A stretch of 64,000 nucleotides of DNA, taken from NCBI GenBank assembly GCA_947491985.1, contig CANLLR010000002.1, positions 1 through 64,000 on the forward strand, given 5' to 3'. Under the pieces are notes generated by a model, which ran no database searches, had not been told where the DNA came from, and saw nothing but the letters and a program-made list of their open reading frames with translations. The translations under genes were made by a program, and so were the position numbers. The DNA is from Flavobacteriaceae bacterium. GTDB lineage: Bacteria > Bacteroidota > Bacteroidia > Flavobacteriales > Flavobacteriaceae. Below, piece after piece: positions 368 through 50,061 of this stretch (within the stretch, counting starts at the first letter, position 1; every line of letters starts with the position of its first letter).

Positions 368-1594
368 ATGTTAGAAATAGAAAAAACAAATTTTGAACGG
401 ACAATCATTGTAGGAATTGTAACTCAAAACCAAAGTGAAGAAAAACTAATTGAATACCTTGAAGAGTTAGAATTTCTCACTTTCACTGCCGGAGGTGAAG
501 TCGTTAAACGTTTTTGGCAAAAAATGGAACGACCCAATCCAAAAACTTTTTTAGGAACGGGAAAAATGGACGAAATTCATTTGTATGTTAAAGAACATGC
601 CATTTCGACCATTATTTTCGATGATGAATTATCGCCATCGCAACAAAAAAACATCTCCAAATTAATTGATTGTAAAGTCCTTGACAGAACCAATCTTATT
701 TTAGATATTTTCGCTCAAAGAGCTGAAACATCCTATGCTAGAACACAAGTTGAATTAGCCCAATGCCAATATTTACTCCCAAGACTTTCTGGAATGTGGA
801 CTCACTTAGAGCGTCAAAAAGGAGGAATCGGTCTGCGTGGACCAGGTGAAACCGAAATTGAAACTGACCGTCGTATTGTTCGTGACCGAATTGCGTTACT
901 TAAAGATAAAATTAAAACCATAGACAAACAAATGTCAGTCCAAAGAGGCAATCGTGGCGCCATGGTTCGCGTGGCGTTGGTAGGCTATACCAATGTTGGA
1001 AAATCGACGTTAATGAATGCCGTTGGGAAAAGCGACGTTTTTGTGGAAAATAAATTATTTGCTACGCTTGACACCACTGTTAGAAAAGTGGTGATTAAAA
1101 ATTTACCGTTTTTACTTTCTGATACGGTTGGATTTATTCGCAAACTTCCAACACAATTAATCGAATCGTTCAAAAGTACTTTAGATGAAGTTCGAGAAGC
1201 CGATTTACTTTTGCACGTTGTCGATATTTCGCATCCTGATTTTGAAGACCATATTGCTTCGGTGAATCAAATTTTAGCCGACATCAAATGCACCGACAAA
1301 CCCACGATTATGGTGTTCAATAAAATTGATGCTTTCAAACATTTGACTATTGATGAGGATGATTTAATTACCGAAAGAACGACTAAACACTATACCTTGG
1401 ACGAATGGAAAGCCACTTGGATGCACAACGTTGGGGAAAAGAATGCACTGTTTATCTCGGCTACCGAAAAAGAAAATTTCGAAGAATTTAGAGAAAAAGT
1501 TTATGAAAATGTGAGAGAAATTCACATCACGCGCTTTCCATACAACAAATTTTTGTATCCCGATTATAAAGATGCCTTAGAAAAAGAAGAATAA
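368..1594 (+). CDS. hflX: GTPase HflX
   Basis: GLRGPGETEIETDRR motif and G1 motif GYTNVGKST in ORF. Confidence 0.95.
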   Translation: MLEIEKTNFERTIIVGIVTQNQSEEKLIEYLEELEFLTFTAGGEVVKRFWQKMERPNPKTFLGTGKMDEIHLYVKEHAISTIIFDDELSPSQQKNISKLIDCKVLDRTNLILDIFAQRAETSYARTQVELAQCQYLLPRLSGMWTHLERQKGGIGLRGPGETEIETDRRIVRDRIALLKDKIKTIDKQMSVQRGNRGAMVRVALVGYTNVGKSTLMNAVGKSDVFVENKLFATLDTTVRKVVIKNLPFLLSDTVGFIRKLPTQLIESFKSTLDEVREADLLLHVVDISHPDFEDHIASVNQILADIKCTDKPTIMVFNKIDAFKHLTIDEDDLITERTTKHYTLDEWKATWMHNVGEKNALFISATEKENFEEFREKVYENVREIHITRFPYNKFLYPDYKDALEKEE

Positions 1595-1600
1595 GACAAT

Positions 1601-1635
1601 AAAAAAGCCCTTCAGAAATGCTAAAGGGCTTTTTT
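1601..1635. terminator. Bidirectional intrinsic terminator between convergent hflX and DUF3078 gene
   Basis: AAAAAGCCCTT / AAGGGCTTTTT hairpin with A/T tracts on both sides. Confidence 0.85.
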
Positions 1636-1653
1636 ATTTTTTTACTTTCTTGT

Positions 1654-2562
1654 TTAGAAATTATAATTTAAGCCCAAGCCAAACACTTGTCTCACCTGAA
1701 CCGCTTTAATAGCGTTGTCATCGTAAATAGCTTGAAATGCGATGTTTGCCGACATGTATTTGTTGACTTTCATAACCAAATTCATCTGATAATCGATGTC
1801 TACGTTTTGCGGTTTATCCAAATAATTGGAATACAAATTCAAAATATTTTCCATTGTTACATTGGTCATTAAAGTCGCCTTGTAATAGACATTTACAGCA
1901 GCACCAAATTCAAATCGAGTAGTTTTATTACCTTCAACACCAAAATAAGAAACGCCTTCTGGCAAACCTTCGGTAAATTCGCTGTGAACAAAAATAACTC
2001 TGGATGTTGCTGGAGCAATATTAACTTTTAGATTATCGCTTTTTTTCCACAACATTCCAGGTCCAGCTTGAAGGTAGGCAGGCGAGAAAAAATGGGATAT
2101 CTTTACACCCGTAGCTGGAGCAAAACCCGAATCCATTTGTGTTCTAAAATTCAAAAAAGCCGAATAATACCAATTGCTGTTGCCCGTTTTTTTTCCGTAA
2201 AGGGACGTAAATTCAAATCGGTCGTCCGATTTTGTCATCTCTTGACCTTTCAATTTCGTCAAACCATAAGCAACAATTAATTTATTGTCCCAAACCGATG
2301 TTACAGACGAATAATTGTAATCGTAATTCAATCCGATATTACCTGCAATATTTGACGTTCCTCCGCCAAGCCATTCGTTATTAAAGGCCGATTGATTCAA
2401 AAGAAACACGAAATTTCCAGTGCGTTTCCATCCTAATTTTGTAGTGTCAATGGCTCTTTCAGAGGCTTTTTTAGCTTTTTCTAAACCTGTTTTTTCATTG
2501 TCTTGCGCAAAAATTCCCGTAAGGAAAAACAAGGCAAAAATTGTTTGTAAAAATTTCTTCAT
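1654..2562 (-). CDS. DUF3078-like outer membrane protein with signal peptide
   Basis: Signal peptide, GWKRTGNFVFLLNQSAFNNEWLGGGTSNIAGN pattern. Confidence 0.75.
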   Translation of the reverse strand: MKKFLQTIFALFFLTGIFAQDNEKTGLEKAKKASERAIDTTKLGWKRTGNFVFLLNQSAFNNEWLGGGTSNIAGNIGLNYDYNYSSVTSVWDNKLIVAYGLTKLKGQEMTKSDDRFEFTSLYGKKTGNSNWYYSAFLNFRTQMDSGFAPATGVKISHFFSPAYLQAGPGMLWKKSDNLKVNIAPATSRVIFVHSEFTEGLPEGVSYFGVEGNKTTRFEFGAAVNVYYKATLMTNVTMENILNLYSNYLDKPQNVDIDYQMNLVMKVNKYMSANIAFQAIYDDNAIKAVQVRQVFGLGLNYNF

Positions 2563-31246: not shown

Positions 31247-31262
31247 CGTTTCACGTGGAACG
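31247..31262. promoter_or_regulatory. parS-like ParB-binding site CGTTTCACGTGGAACG
   Basis: Near-match to the parS consensus TGTTNCACGTGNAACA. Confidence 0.75.
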
Positions 31263-31263
31263 T

Positions 31264-33132
31264 TTACCTACCCATATAAATTAACAATACTGAAATATCG
31301 CTTGGCGAAACACCGCTAATACGAGATGCTTGTGAAATGGTTACGGGACGAATCTTGCTTAATTTTTGTTTGGCTTCGATTGACATGGATTTGATTTTAT
31401 GATAATCGAAGTTTTCTGGAATTTTCACATCTTCCAATCGGGTCAATTTATCAGCATTATTTCGTTCCTTTTCTATATAGCCTGAGTATTTCACTTGAAT
31501 TTCGGCTTGCTCTAAAATCTCCCTATCAAGATTATTTTCGGACACATAACTCGCTACTTTTTCAAACTTTAAGAAGTCATCCAAATCAATTTGTGGACGT
31601 GAGAAGACTTTAAACATTTTGTCCGATTGATCCATTAACGCGCTTTCTTTTGCTACTAATATCGGATTTGCTTCTGCCATTGTGACACTCGTTTCTTTAA
31701 AAAACTGTACCATCGCATCACTCGCAGCAAACTTTTTCTCCATTCTGCGCAAACGTTCTTCTGAAGCCAAACCAATTGCATGAGCTTTTGGTGTAAGTCG
31801 TGAATCGGCATTATCTTGTCGTAAAAGCGTTCTATATTCAGCACGAGACGTAAACATACGATACGGTTCTTCGGTTCCTTTAGTAATTAAATCGTCGATA
31901 AGAACGCCAATATACGCTTCGTCACGCTTTAAAATCATTGGTTCTTCTTCTTTTACTTTGAGTGCAGCATTGATTCCGGCCATCATTCCTTGAGAAGCAG
32001 CTTCTTCATAGCCAGTTGTTCCATTAATTTGTCCGGCAAAATACAAACCTTCAACCAACTTCGTCTCTAATGTATGTTTCAATTGCGTTGGCGGAAAATA
32101 ATCGTATTCGATGGCATAACCAGGACGGAAAAATTTTACATTTTCAAATCCGGCTACCGATCGTAAAGCTTTAAATTGAATGTCTTCAGGAAGCGATGTG
32201 GAGAAACCATTGACATATACTTCGACTGTATCCCAGCCTTCAGGTTCAACAAACAATTGGTGTCTTTCTTTATCGGCAAAGCGGTTGATTTTATCTTCGA
32301 TAGACGGACAATAACGTGGGCCGATACTTTTTATGCGACCGTTAAACATTGGCGAGCGATCAAATCCTTCACGTAAAATATCATGAACCTCTAACGAAGT
32401 ATAGGTCATGTGACACGGTTTTTGCTTAGTTAACGGTTTCGTTTCGTCTGAATAAGAGAACTTGTCTGGTTTTACATCACCTAATTCTTCACGCATTTTG
32501 GAATAATCCAACGATCGACCATCAACTCTTGGTGGTGTTCCTGTTTTCATTCGGCCCGATTCAAAACCTACGTTAACCAACTCTTCGGTGATCCCAAAAG
32601 CAGCACTTTCGCCTGCTCGTCCTCCACCGAATTGTTTATCTCCAATATGGATTAAACCATTAAGAAAAGTACCATTGGTTAAAACGACCGATTTAGCTTT
32701 GATTTCGATACCCAAAGAAGTCACAATTCCTTCCACTTTATTATTTTTAATAAGTAGACCTTTGACCATTTCTTGATAGAAATCGAGATTGGGCGTTCGC
32801 TCTAACATCAAGCGCCATTCTTCTGCAAAACGCATTCGGTCACTTTGAACACGAGGTGACCACATGGCTGGACCTTTTGACTTGTTGAGCATTTTGAATT
32901 GCACCGCGGTTTTATCGGATATGATTCCGGAATACCCGCCCATAGCATCAATTTCGCGTACAATTTGTCCTTTTGCGATTCCGCCCATAGCTGGATTACA
33001 TGACATTTGTGCAATATTTTGCAAACTCATTGTTACCAATAATGTAGAGCAGCCTAAATTGGCTGACGCTGCTGCAGCTTCGCATCCTGCGTGTCCTGCC
33101 CCTACTACTATAACATCGTATGTATTAAACAT
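31264..33132 (-). CDS. mnmG: tRNA uridine-5-carboxymethylaminomethyl(34) synthesis enzyme MnmG (GidA)
   Basis: DVIVVGAGHAGCEAA, CNPAMGGIAKGQIVREIDAMGG. Confidence 0.98.
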   Translation of the reverse strand: MFNTYDVIVVGAGHAGCEAAAASANLGCSTLLVTMSLQNIAQMSCNPAMGGIAKGQIVREIDAMGGYSGIISDKTAVQFKMLNKSKGPAMWSPRVQSDRMRFAEEWRLMLERTPNLDFYQEMVKGLLIKNNKVEGIVTSLGIEIKAKSVVLTNGTFLNGLIHIGDKQFGGGRAGESAAFGITEELVNVGFESGRMKTGTPPRVDGRSLDYSKMREELGDVKPDKFSYSDETKPLTKQKPCHMTYTSLEVHDILREGFDRSPMFNGRIKSIGPRYCPSIEDKINRFADKERHQLFVEPEGWDTVEVYVNGFSTSLPEDIQFKALRSVAGFENVKFFRPGYAIEYDYFPPTQLKHTLETKLVEGLYFAGQINGTTGYEEAASQGMMAGINAALKVKEEEPMILKRDEAYIGVLIDDLITKGTEEPYRMFTSRAEYRTLLRQDNADSRLTPKAHAIGLASEERLRRMEKKFAASDAMVQFFKETSVTMAEANPILVAKESALMDQSDKMFKVFSRPQIDLDDFLKFEKVASYVSENNLDREILEQAEIQVKYSGYIEKERNNADKLTRLEDVKIPENFDYHKIKSMSIEAKQKLSKIRPVTISQASRISGVSPSDISVLLIYMGR

Positions 33133-33188: not shown

Positions 33189-33204
33189 TGTTCCACGTGG
33201 AACG
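33189..33204. promoter_or_regulatory. parS-like ParB-binding site TGTTCCACGTGGAACG
   Basis: Palindromic match, one off from TGTTCCACGTGGAACA. Confidence 0.8.
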
Positions 33205-33360: not shown

Positions 33361-33780
33361 TTATTGTTTCACGTGGAACAATTTGATTTTTTCGTCTTCT
33401 TTATTTCTCATTAGAATTTCTTCGTCTTCTGATTTGTCCTTATAACCACAGTAATGCAGAATGCCGTGAATGATGACTCTTTTCAATTCTTCGTCGAAAG
33501 TTACGTTGAAATCTTCGGCGTTCTCTATCACTCTTTCTACGGAAACAAAAATATCTCCGTGTAATTCGTTTCCTACAGAATAGTCAAAACTAATAATGTC
33601 GGTATAGTAGTCATGATCAAGGTATTGCTTATTGATGTTTAAGATAAACGCGTCATCACAAAAGATATAATTAATATCGCCTTCTTTTTTGTTTTCGGAT
33701 AAAATAACCTTAGATATCCAATCAGAAAAAAGCGGTTCATTATCGAGTTGAAAGTCGGTTTCGTATGTATAACTAATCAT
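33361..33780 (-). CDS. ybeY: Endoribonuclease YbeY
   Basis: VIIHGILHYCGYKDKSEDE (H-x3-H metal motif). Confidence 0.93.
   Translation of the reverse strand: MISYTYETDFQLDNEPLFSDWISKVILSENKKEGDINYIFCDDAFILNINKQYLDHDYYTDIISFDYSVGNELHGDIFVSVERVIENAEDFNVTFDEELKRVIIHGILHYCGYKDKSEDEEILMRNKEDEKIKLFHVKQ
33365..33380. promoter_or_regulatory. parS-like ParB-binding site TGTTTCACGTGGAACA
   Basis: Near-perfect parS consensus; encodes the YbeY C-terminal LFHVKQ. Confidence 0.85.
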
Positions 33781-46444: not shown

Positions 46445-48625
46445 TTATTGGTTTTTTCTTATAAAGTGAAAATCCAATTGTTTTTTAACCAAATCAGCAT
46501 TCTTTACTTTAACAAAAACTTCGTCTCCTAATTGTAATAAACTCTTAGTTATTTCGCCAACTAAAGCATATTGTTTGTCATCAAAAGTGTAATAATCGTC
46601 TTTAATTTCGCGAATTCTACACATACCTTCACATTTGTTTTCGATAATTTCAACATAAATTCCCCATTCGGTAACACCCGAAATAACACCCAAAAACTCC
46701 TGATCTTTGTGATCTTGCATGTATTTAACTTGCATGTATTTAACCGAATCGCGTTCGGCTTGTGCAGCTAAATATTCCATTTCACTCGAATGTACACATT
46801 TTTCTTCAAACGCATCTTCGCTGGCACTTTTTCCTCCATCCAAATAAAATTGCAACAATCGGTGCACCATTACATCTGGATAACGTCGAATTGGCGAAGT
46901 AAAATGACTGTAATAATCAAACGCCAAACCGTAATGACCAATATTATCAGTAGAATATTTGGCTTTACTCATGGTTCGAATCGCCAACGTATCAATTAAA
47001 TTTTGCTCTTTTTTTCCGTTCACATCTTCCATCAATTGGTTGAGCGATTTGGAAATATTTTTCTTTTCACGTAAATCTATTTTATAACCAAACTTCAAAA
47101 TCAACGCTTGCATTGCAAACAACTTATCTTCGTTGGGTTCGTCGTGAATTCTGTAAATAAACGTTTTCTTTTGTTTACCAATAAATTCGGCCACTTTTCT
47201 GTTGGCTAAAAGCATGAATTCTTCAATCAAATGATTGGCATCTTTAGAAATTTTAAAGTACACGCCAACAGGTTCCGACTCTTGATTTAAATTGAATTTT
47301 ACTTCGACTTTATCAAACGAAATAGCACCATTTGCCATTCGTTTTCTTCGTAGAATTTTAGCCAATTCGTCTTGTTTCAACGTAGCAAAAACAATGTCAT
47401 CAGATACTTTGTATTCTTTTCCGGTTAACGAAATTTCAGCCGGAATTACATTCGACCTACTTTCAATGATTTGTTGTGCTTCTTCATATGAAAAACGTTG
47501 ATCCGAATAAATGACTGTTCTTCCAAACCATTGATTAACTACTTCAGCTTTTGGCGTTAATTCGAATATGGTAGAAAACGTATATTTTTCTTCATTTGGT
47601 CGTAACGAACAAGCAAAATTAGACAACACTTCTGGTAACATAGGTACTACTCTATCCACTAAATAGACCGACGTTGCACGGTTATACGCCTCATCATCTA
47701 AAATAGTTCCTTCTACTAAATAGTGCGAAACATCTGCAATGTGAACACCAATTTCATAATTTCCGTTTTCCAATACTTGAAACGACAGCGCATCATCAAA
47801 ATCTTTAGCATCTTTTGGATCGATGGTAAACGTTAACACCTTTCGCATGTCGCGCCGTTTTTTTATTTCTTCTGGAGTAATCGAAGTATCTATTTTATTA
47901 GCATACGTTTCCACTTCAATCGGAAAATCATAAGGCAAACCATATTCTGCTAAAATGGCGTGAATTTCGGTATTGTGTTCGCCTGGTTTTCCTAGAACTT
48001 TAATTACCGAACCAAAAGGGGAATCGGCTTTTTGCGGCCAATCTTCCATCTTTACTAATACCACTTCTCCGTGTTGCGCTTCGCCTAACTTATTTTTTGG
48101 AATAAAAATATCGGTGTACATTTTCGCATTGGTAGTGGTTACAAATCCGAAATTCTTTTGAATTGAAATTACTCCAACAAATTCTAATTTAGCTCTTTCT
48201 ACTATTTCTAATACTTCAGCTTCGGGTTTTCGGGAGCTTCGTCTGTCGTAAACATAAGCTTTTACAGTATCGCCATCTAAAGCGTGATTCAAATTAGTAA
48301 AAGGTACAAAAACGTCATTTTCTAATTCGTCGCAAACAAAATAACCGGTTTTTCTAGTGGTCATGTCAATTTTTCCTTCGTAGTATTTTTGACTTGATGC
48401 TTTAACCAAATACGAACCGGGTTCGGTTTCAATAATTAATTTTTGTGCTGCTAATATTTTTAAATCTTTGATTATTTCGTTTCTACTTTTGGTATCATCT
48501 AATTCTAAAATAGCAGCTATTTGTTTGTAATTGAATGGTTTATTTTCATTTTTAGAAAGTATTTTAAAAATCTTTTCGGAAAACGTTTTGGTACTTTTTC
48601 CGGGTTTGTAATGTTTCTTACTCAT
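46445..48625 (-). CDS. rnr: Ribonuclease R
   Basis: TIDPKDAKDFDDALSF, HYGLAFDYYSHFTSPIRRYPD, C-terminal S1 domain. Confidence 0.97.
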   Translation of the reverse strand: MSKKHYKPGKSTKTFSEKIFKILSKNENKPFNYKQIAAILELDDTKSRNEIIKDLKILAAQKLIIETEPGSYLVKASSQKYYEGKIDMTTRKTGYFVCDELENDVFVPFTNLNHALDGDTVKAYVYDRRSSRKPEAEVLEIVERAKLEFVGVISIQKNFGFVTTTNAKMYTDIFIPKNKLGEAQHGEVVLVKMEDWPQKADSPFGSVIKVLGKPGEHNTEIHAILAEYGLPYDFPIEVETYANKIDTSITPEEIKKRRDMRKVLTFTIDPKDAKDFDDALSFQVLENGNYEIGVHIADVSHYLVEGTILDDEAYNRATSVYLVDRVVPMLPEVLSNFACSLRPNEEKYTFSTIFELTPKAEVVNQWFGRTVIYSDQRFSYEEAQQIIESRSNVIPAEISLTGKEYKVSDDIVFATLKQDELAKILRRKRMANGAISFDKVEVKFNLNQESEPVGVYFKISKDANHLIEEFMLLANRKVAEFIGKQKKTFIYRIHDEPNEDKLFAMQALILKFGYKIDLREKKNISKSLNQLMEDVNGKKEQNLIDTLAIRTMSKAKYSTDNIGHYGLAFDYYSHFTSPIRRYPDVMVHRLLQFYLDGGKSASEDAFEEKCVHSSEMEYLAAQAERDSVKYMQVKYMQDHKDQEFLGVISGVTEWGIYVEIIENKCEGMCRIREIKDDYYTFDDKQYALVGEITKSLLQLGDEVFVKVKNADLVKKQLDFHFIRKNQ

Positions 48626-48733: not shown

Positions 48734-48967
48734 ATGAATGAATTTATAACGATTGCTATTTTTAATTCGCACACTGAAATTATTGTTTTAAAATCGGTTT
48801 TAGAAAATAAAGGCATTATTCATTTATTTGAAAATGAAACACTTATTTCTATTGATCCTTTTGCAAGTATAGCGTATGGCGGCATTAAATTAAAAATACA
48901 TCCCAACGATAATGAAATCGTTCAGGAGATTTTGGATACTTTGGATTCTAATTTAAAAATTGTATAA
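48734..48967 (+). CDS. DUF2007-like small protein
   Basis: EIIVLKSVLENKGIIHLFENE...GGIKLKIHPNDNEIVQEIL. Confidence 0.7.
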   Translation: MNEFITIAIFNSHTEIIVLKSVLENKGIIHLFENETLISIDPFASIAYGGIKLKIHPNDNEIVQEILDTLDSNLKIV

Positions 48968-49632
48968 TCTATATTCTATTCTTTAAAAAAATAAAAGTTG
49001 TCAACATCTATTAAAAGCAACAAAAAGAAATTTTAAATTTAAATTAATTTATAATGCTTATTATAGTGTGTTAATTAGTACAATAAGTTTTTAAGGATTG
49101 TTTGAATTATAAAGTTATAGTTATTTATACCAATTTATCAACATCGCAATACAAAAATAAAACGCTCATTTTGAAGCCTTATTTGATTTTAATCAACAGT
49201 TGTTCACAACCAAAAATAAATAAGTTTTGTAAATAACTTTGTGTAGAAAATATGTTAACAAACTACTTTTTTATAGTGATAACTTTTCTAAAAAATAGTC
49301 AAACTAAATTAGGTTTTTAAATTACTATTTTTGATTACAATTTATTTACATACAACCAAGAAAAACTTCTAAAAATCTATCCAAACTTGTTAACAATTAA
49401 TGTTAATTTAAGGTTAATTGAATATCAATGAATTACAAAAAACTATTAACATTCAAATATTTTAACAAATTTTATACATTAAAACCATTGATTAATAGCC
49501 AATTGTAAAATAAATGTAAACAAAATAAAAGTTTTCCATTTTAAAATCAACTACTTATAAAACAGCTAAAATCAAAACGATTTAACCAAAAGTTTGTATA
49601 AATTTGTAACTATAAAATTCAAAATTAGCATT
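48968..49632. other. Candidate chromosomal origin (oriC)
   Basis: ~665-bp very AT-rich noncoding DNA; DnaA-box-like 9-mers at 48998-49006, 49135-49143, 49200-49208, 49240-49248 (-), 49253-49261 (-), 49387-49395; gene-strand switch point. Confidence 0.5.
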
Positions 49633-50061
49633 ATGAAAATTGCCATCGGAAATGACCACGCAGGACCAGATTATAAATTAGCTATTGTGGCGCATTTAGA
49701 ATCACAAGGACATGAAATTAAAAATTACGGAACCGATACTTTTAATAGTGTGGATTATCCGGATTTTGGTCATCCTGTTGCGCTTGATGTAGAAAGTAAA
49801 AAGGCCGATTTTGGTATCATAATTTGTGGCTCTGGAAACGGAATTGCGATGACGGCCAACAAACATCAAGGTATTCGGGCAGCTTTGTGTTGGACCAAAG
49901 AAATTGCTAGTTTAGCACGTCAACACAACAACTCCAATATTATTAGTATTCCCGCTCGTTTTACCTCTATTCAACAAGCTATTGAAATGGTGGATACGTT
50001 TTTAAATACAGCTTTTGAAGGCGGAAGACATGAAAATAGAGTTGAAAAAATAAATTGTTAA
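49633..50061 (+). CDS. rpiB: Ribose 5-phosphate isomerase B
   Basis: MKIAIGNDHAGPDYK; GIIICGSGNGIAMTANKHQGIRAALC. Confidence 0.95.
   Translation: MKIAIGNDHAGPDYKLAIVAHLESQGHEIKNYGTDTFNSVDYPDFGHPVALDVESKKADFGIIICGSGNGIAMTANKHQGIRAALCWTKEIASLARQHNNSNIISIPARFTSIQQAIEMVDTFLNTAFEGGRHENRVEKINC

Follow-up and report, generated by a model that had tools for sequence, protein, structure and literature searches.

Gene context and composition of the intergenic region

The window, i.e., the whole stretch of 64,000 nucleotides that was analysed, is part of a 158-kb contig (C2) of a draft Flavobacteriaceae genome of 2.65 Mb in 82 contigs, whose nearest relatives, judged by the Rnr and RpiB proteins, belong to Flavobacterium. 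It contains a 665-bp gap that separates a small ORF from rpiB, and rnr lies on the far side of the small ORF, divergent from rpiB (Table 1); rnr adjoins rpiB in nearly all complete relatives. Pfam agrees with the first-pass annotation in naming rpiB as the right neighbour. The DUF2007 label that had been given to the small ORF was not confirmed, no Pfam match being obtained at E 1e-3. About 16 kb away from the gap, mnmG is flanked by parS sites that adjoin ybeY, and parS-like sites with up to two mismatches number 3 in the window vs. 0.35 expected. The mnmG gene is a classic neighbour of the origin in other phyla.

The gap had been described as the longest gene-free stretch of the window and as very AT-rich, and both statements were borne out: it is the longest interval when ORFs from 70 aa upward are considered (the runner-up has 421 bp), its G+C content is 19.2% vs. 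34.9% for the window, and it ranks 5th in AT-richness among 12,667 overlapping segments of that length. The 60-mers from 49021 onward are among the least stable of the window according to their nearest-neighbour energy. Triplets resembling the DnaA-trio motif are too frequent at this base composition to be informative on inspection. The recomputed coding lengths, 14.8 kb plus and 29.8 kb minus to the left of the gap and 10.8 and 1.9 kb to the right, reproduce the strand bias reported previously, and this bias is weaker when the right side is followed over the full 158-kb contig (60.5 plus, 39.5 minus).

Table 1. Features of the proposed origin and its neighbourhood (coordinates of the window).
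Feature	Position	Strand	Evidence or remarks
Proposed oriC, AT-rich intergenic region from small ORF to rpiB	48968..49632	.	19% G+C, boxes, family-wide conservation
Conserved core, match of model R1 (227 positions)	49051..49274	+	E 1e-31, own genome
DnaA box A, TTGTCAACA	48998..49006	+	Up to 1 mismatch in 54/54 rows having the position
Most conserved non-box element, consensus TGATGGTTATTATAGCGTGTTAATA	49050..49092	+	Near-invariant alignment columns
DnaA box B, TTATCAACA	49135..49143	+	Exact in 59/90; up to 1 mismatch in 81/90
DnaA box C, TTGTTCACA	49200..49208	+	Exact on + strand in 18/90; - strand, up to 1 mismatch, in 67/90
DnaA box D, TTGTTAACA	49253..49261	-	Up to 1 mismatch in 87/90
DnaA box E, palindromic TTGTTAACAA	49387..49396	.	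Exact in 77/90; up to 1 mismatch in 90/90
Least stable stretch of the gap, candidate unwinding region	49021..49093	.	Overlaps conserved 49050-49092
Conserved right arm with TGTTAA/TTAACA half-sites	49266..49470	+	70-72% mean identity to relatives
rpiB (ribose-5-phosphate isomerase B family), usual right neighbour	49633..50061	+	Pfam PF02502
Small 77-aa ORF, usual left neighbour in Flavobacterium	48734..48967	+	No Pfam family
rnr (ribonuclease R), divergent from rpiB	46445..48625	-	Pfam RNB
parS, perfect, TGTTTCACGTGGAACA	33365..33380	.	Sole perfect parS in own genome
parS-like, 1 mismatch	33189..33204	.	Motif scan
parS-like, 2 mismatches	31247..31262	.	Motif scan
mnmG (gidA), parS sites on both sides	31264..33132	-	Pfam GIDA
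ybeY, adjoining parS	33361..33780	-	Pfam YbeY

DnaA boxes and conservation of the block

The first-pass annotation had listed six DnaA-box-like 9-mers in the gap, and all of them were located where it had placed them. Five fit the motif TTRTYMACA and are designated boxes A to E; the sixth, TTCTACACA (49240-49248, minus strand), is conserved in 0 of 90 relatives and was dropped as a DnaA box. The exact motif was counted 6 times in the gap (five 9-mers, the palindromic 49387-49396 being scored on both strands) vs. a mean of 0.155 in composition-matched shuffles, none of 5000 shuffles reaching 6. Nowhere else in the window are the boxes so densely clustered. Since the count for the entire window (13 vs. 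10.3 expected) shows no excess, the signal resides in the clustering of the boxes within the gap and not in their abundance. A search for the Escherichia coli box TTATCCACA allowing one mismatch was not specific to the gap.

The same 9-mer is found at fixed places before dnaA, and thus we consider TTRTYMACA to be the DnaA box of this lineage. Among the Flavobacterium genomes examined for this purpose (L001 and L242-L269), 25 had enough upstream sequence, and these have a box about 520 bp before dnaA in all 25 cases and another at about 118 bp in nearly all, adding up to 59 boxes vs. 3.1 expected. The main difference between the dialect, TTRTYAACA, and TTATCCACA is at position 6, and the perfect TTATCCACA is present in the same gap of several other genera. 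In bacteria, dnaA is commonly autoregulated by way of DnaA boxes, and the boxes at -520 and -118 form a conserved layout of this kind. A further cluster, five TTRTYMACA located within and immediately ahead of the beginning of a DnaB-like ORF of 514 aa (613-2155, minus strand, identity judged by eye), was observed on another contig of the own genome (G000:C12:1901-2364, L226), which suggests that DnaA may control dnaB. In one complete genome (G230:C1:1660294-1661687), dnaA appears in several pieces with stop codons, due to either sequencing error or a real pseudogene.

When 90 Flavobacterium loci were aligned, some 450 bp of non-coding sequence (roughly 49020-49470; the block) stood out by near-invariant positions, and the 160 bp adjoining rpiB varied freely, the stretch 49471-49560 having 46% mean identity to the relatives. 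The first-pass annotation had regarded a lack of conservation of the 9-mers in syntenic relatives as evidence against its reading; we found them conserved together with their spacing, box D lying 134 bp from box E in 84 of the 90 rows and box A 137 bp from box B in the commonest class, while control positions gave 0% exact boxes and 1.8% within one mismatch. A half-site, ATCAACA, is located just upstream of box C. The near-invariant element at 49050-49092 is a possible unwinding or initiator-loading element, and either GGTTATTATAG or TTATTATAG recurs between rnr and rpiB in several other genera.

The aligned loci had been selected for containing one or more pairs of boxes separated by the expected distance, and model searches are the less circular test. 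Of the 120 Flavobacterium genomes searched with model R1, built on 227 nt of the conserved block, 118 were matched, in nearly all cases by one strong match. In the own genome the only strong match is that at C2:49051-49274, with one marginal match elsewhere (E 0.02). When the search was extended to 150 Flavobacteriaceae genomes, about one per genus, 133 were matched at E up to 0.1, some 130 of them clearly, and 17 had no match at that threshold. The element is present in 28 of 29 single-contig genomes, in 27 of these within 2.5 kb of rpiB (hand count). In the 800 bp before rpiB of other genera, 70 boxes were counted vs. 5.0 expected (27 genomes), and the downstream control gave 18 vs. 3.4. The locus thus presents what is expected of an oriC in sequence, i.e., a box cluster beyond chance, an AT-rich weak duplex beside the boxes, and a conserved element with, nearly always, one strong match per genome (118/120 in the genus, about 130/150 in the family).

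Linkage to parS, distance from dnaA, and GC skew

The presence of parS in the origin region, another property of an oriC, was also observed. In complete relatives of other genera having perfect parS, every such site is at most 55 kb from the element (5-55 kb, 23 of 23 genomes), and the clusters in the listed Flavobacterium genomes are about 1-18 kb from it. In four genomes in which the element and rpiB are separated, parS stays with the element: the distances to the element and to rpiB are, respectively, 0.8 vs. 74 kb in G168, 2 vs. 52 kb in G213, 2 vs. 18 kb in G252, and 5.5 vs. 43 kb in G017. In G168, the element and its boxes are found immediately upstream of ybeY-parS-mnmG, and the gap between rnr and rpiB is short and has no boxes; the skew profile of this genome is noisy, with the coding strand and the raw skew shifting near the element and not near rpiB. 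The location of the element near ybeY-parS-mnmG-parS rather than at rnr-rpiB was noted in G168 (C1:999433-1002325), G199, G213, and G252, direct adjacency being seen in G168. The complete records G019 and G252 begin near the rnr-rpiB interval or the element, and some depositors may already have used a record start based on skew or on rpiB.

As the first-pass annotation had stated, dnaA is not near the gap. In the own genome it is encoded on a separate contig (C18), which carries no comparable box cluster, and in complete relatives it lies 0.6-2 Mb from the element, so that the adjacency to dnaA that is common, although not defining, for origins is lacking here.

Because raw GC skew is noisy and dominated by the coding strand, we used third-codon-position (GC3) skew corrected for coding strand, computed on sampled 20-kb stretches. 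In the closest complete relative (G249), the cumulative minimum is at 552 kb and the element at 543 kb; in a genome of another genus (G045), the minimum falls at 374-383 kb and the element at 388 kb; and in G211, the values are 914.4-915.0 and 913.7-913.9 kb. In G249 and G211 the maxima are almost diametrically opposite the minima, and in all three genomes dnaA is 0.6-1.1 Mb from the element. A skew minimum elsewhere on the chromosome, named beforehand as an argument against the origin, did not appear, the minima lying about 1-14 kb from the element in the three complete relatives, where the statement that no deeper minimum occurs elsewhere rests on a coarse grid covering 12% of each chromosome, since dense sampling was applied only around rpiB. 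Two of the three minima are 9 and about 5-14 kb off, and skew alone thus cannot exclude a neighbouring start. On the own contig C2, the corrected skew shows no significant change at the gap (a difference of 0.026, reached by 821 of 5000 permutations, p ~0.16), and the cumulative minimum is at 130 kb.

A probable chromosomal origin away from dnaA

We consider it very probable, from comparative sequence analysis, that the gap is the chromosomal replication origin, oriC, placed away from dnaA. The skew minima of the relatives, the conservation and spacing of the boxes, and the parS linkage support this reading, which the first-pass annotation had put forward. According to the proposed mechanism, DnaA, encoded 0.6-2 Mb away in complete relatives, would bind the TTRTYAACA boxes A to E over about 400 bp and would open the duplex where it is weak, probably near the conserved TGATGGTTATTATAG element. 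DnaB would then be loaded for two forks in this strain, and ParB bound to the parS sites flanking mnmG, about 16 kb off, would segregate the newly copied origin. In Bacteroidetes, the helicase operator is DciA and not DnaC/DnaI (PMC5109545).

Some observations would also fit a DnaA titration or regulatory site, similar to datA or DARS, with the true start a few to 20 kb away, e.g., at mnmG-parS. In Mariniflexile and Algorimicrobium, Ori-Finder placed the origin adjacent to mnmG (PMC11278836, PMC12843772), the resolution of the skew minima is only about 10 kb, and dnaA and dnaB carry such boxes too. We regard this explanation as improbable, because no other AT-rich gap of the window is as long and no other part of it has boxes so densely clustered, the element moved as a unit with its boxes where it lies away from rpiB, its family-wide, nearly gap-free conservation goes beyond the needs of a titration site, and the minimum of G211 falls within about 1 kb of it. 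Far less credible still is an origin located beside dnaA, as in many bacteria, the gap being then an unrelated conserved regulatory region. The conserved boxes upstream of dnaA and the many records rotated to begin at this gene would agree with it, but the skew switches at rpiB in three complete relatives whose dnaA is 0.6-1.1 Mb off, the parS clusters accompany the element and not dnaA, and the authors of the Mariniflexile study state that the skew does not agree with dnaA (PMC11278836).

The block is also a conserved non-coding sequence located upstream of rpiB in most genomes, and it could be conceived as a promoter, a leader, or a non-coding RNA for rpiB or for the upstream small ORF, with the boxes being incidental. 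This is most unlikely, since Rfam returned a chance-level snoRNA match alone, the block is 2-75 kb away from rpiB in over ten Flavobacterium genomes, genes inserted between the block and rpiB leave it intact, and the stretch where the rpiB promoter is expected is the least conserved part.

Returning to the oriC interpretation, we propose, as a hypothesis that we hold to be somewhat better than even, that the Flavobacteriaceae share one ancestral orisome, consisting of a nearly gap-free TTRTYAACA array (fixed spacing of 134/118-137 bp) plus TGATGGTTATTATAG, about 1 Mb from dnaA. Within the parS-mnmG-rnr neighbourhood, the array would be able to relocate as a whole and take the start site along, and the DnaA of this lineage would prefer A over C at position 6 of the box.

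The E. coli oriC, in the mioC-mnmG region, is likewise an AT-rich intergenic array of DnaA boxes that is away from dnaA and in the neighbourhood of mnmG, and the element described here shares these features with it. It differs in using TTRTYAACA and not TTATCCACA, in its linkage to parS, and in the much wider separation of its main boxes (about 120-137 bp). Within the Flavobacteriaceae, the oriC of Mariniflexile and Algorimicrobium, placed at mnmG, is also off dnaA and belongs to the same ybeY-parS-mnmG neighbourhood (PMC11278836, PMC12843772), whereas most Flavobacterium have the element beside rpiB, about 16 kb from parS-mnmG, and only some at ybeY-mnmG. Outside the family, the called oriC of Elizabethkingia (neighbouring family) is also far from dnaA (PMC8994065), and in Blattabacterium, a relative of Flavobacteriia, an origin was defined by skew within dapB and not at dnaA, although this system has no dnaA and no boxes (PMC2768785).

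The location itself is not new, since an origin at the side of rpiB was already predicted in Tenacibaculum, where Ori-Finder put oriC beside rpiB in 6 of 7 chromosomes (PMC9864904). That case concerns the same family and the same neighbour, with an origin off dnaA; in the available portion of that report, it is a software call made for record rotation, without a conserved architecture, a box dialect, a parS link, or a cross-genus test (PMC9864904). What is new is the architecture conserved throughout the family, together with the dialect of the boxes and their link to parS, for which no describing paper was found in the open-access literature searched.

In many records of Flavobacteriaceae, the sequence has been rotated to dnaA as the origin, and the present data contradict this practice. 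A family-wide origin model would lead to correct rotation, to read-depth estimates of growth rate, and to oriC plasmids for laboratory strains of Flavobacterium, and the element itself is a DnaA-box array that can be tested, is unusually well conserved, and has its own dialect.
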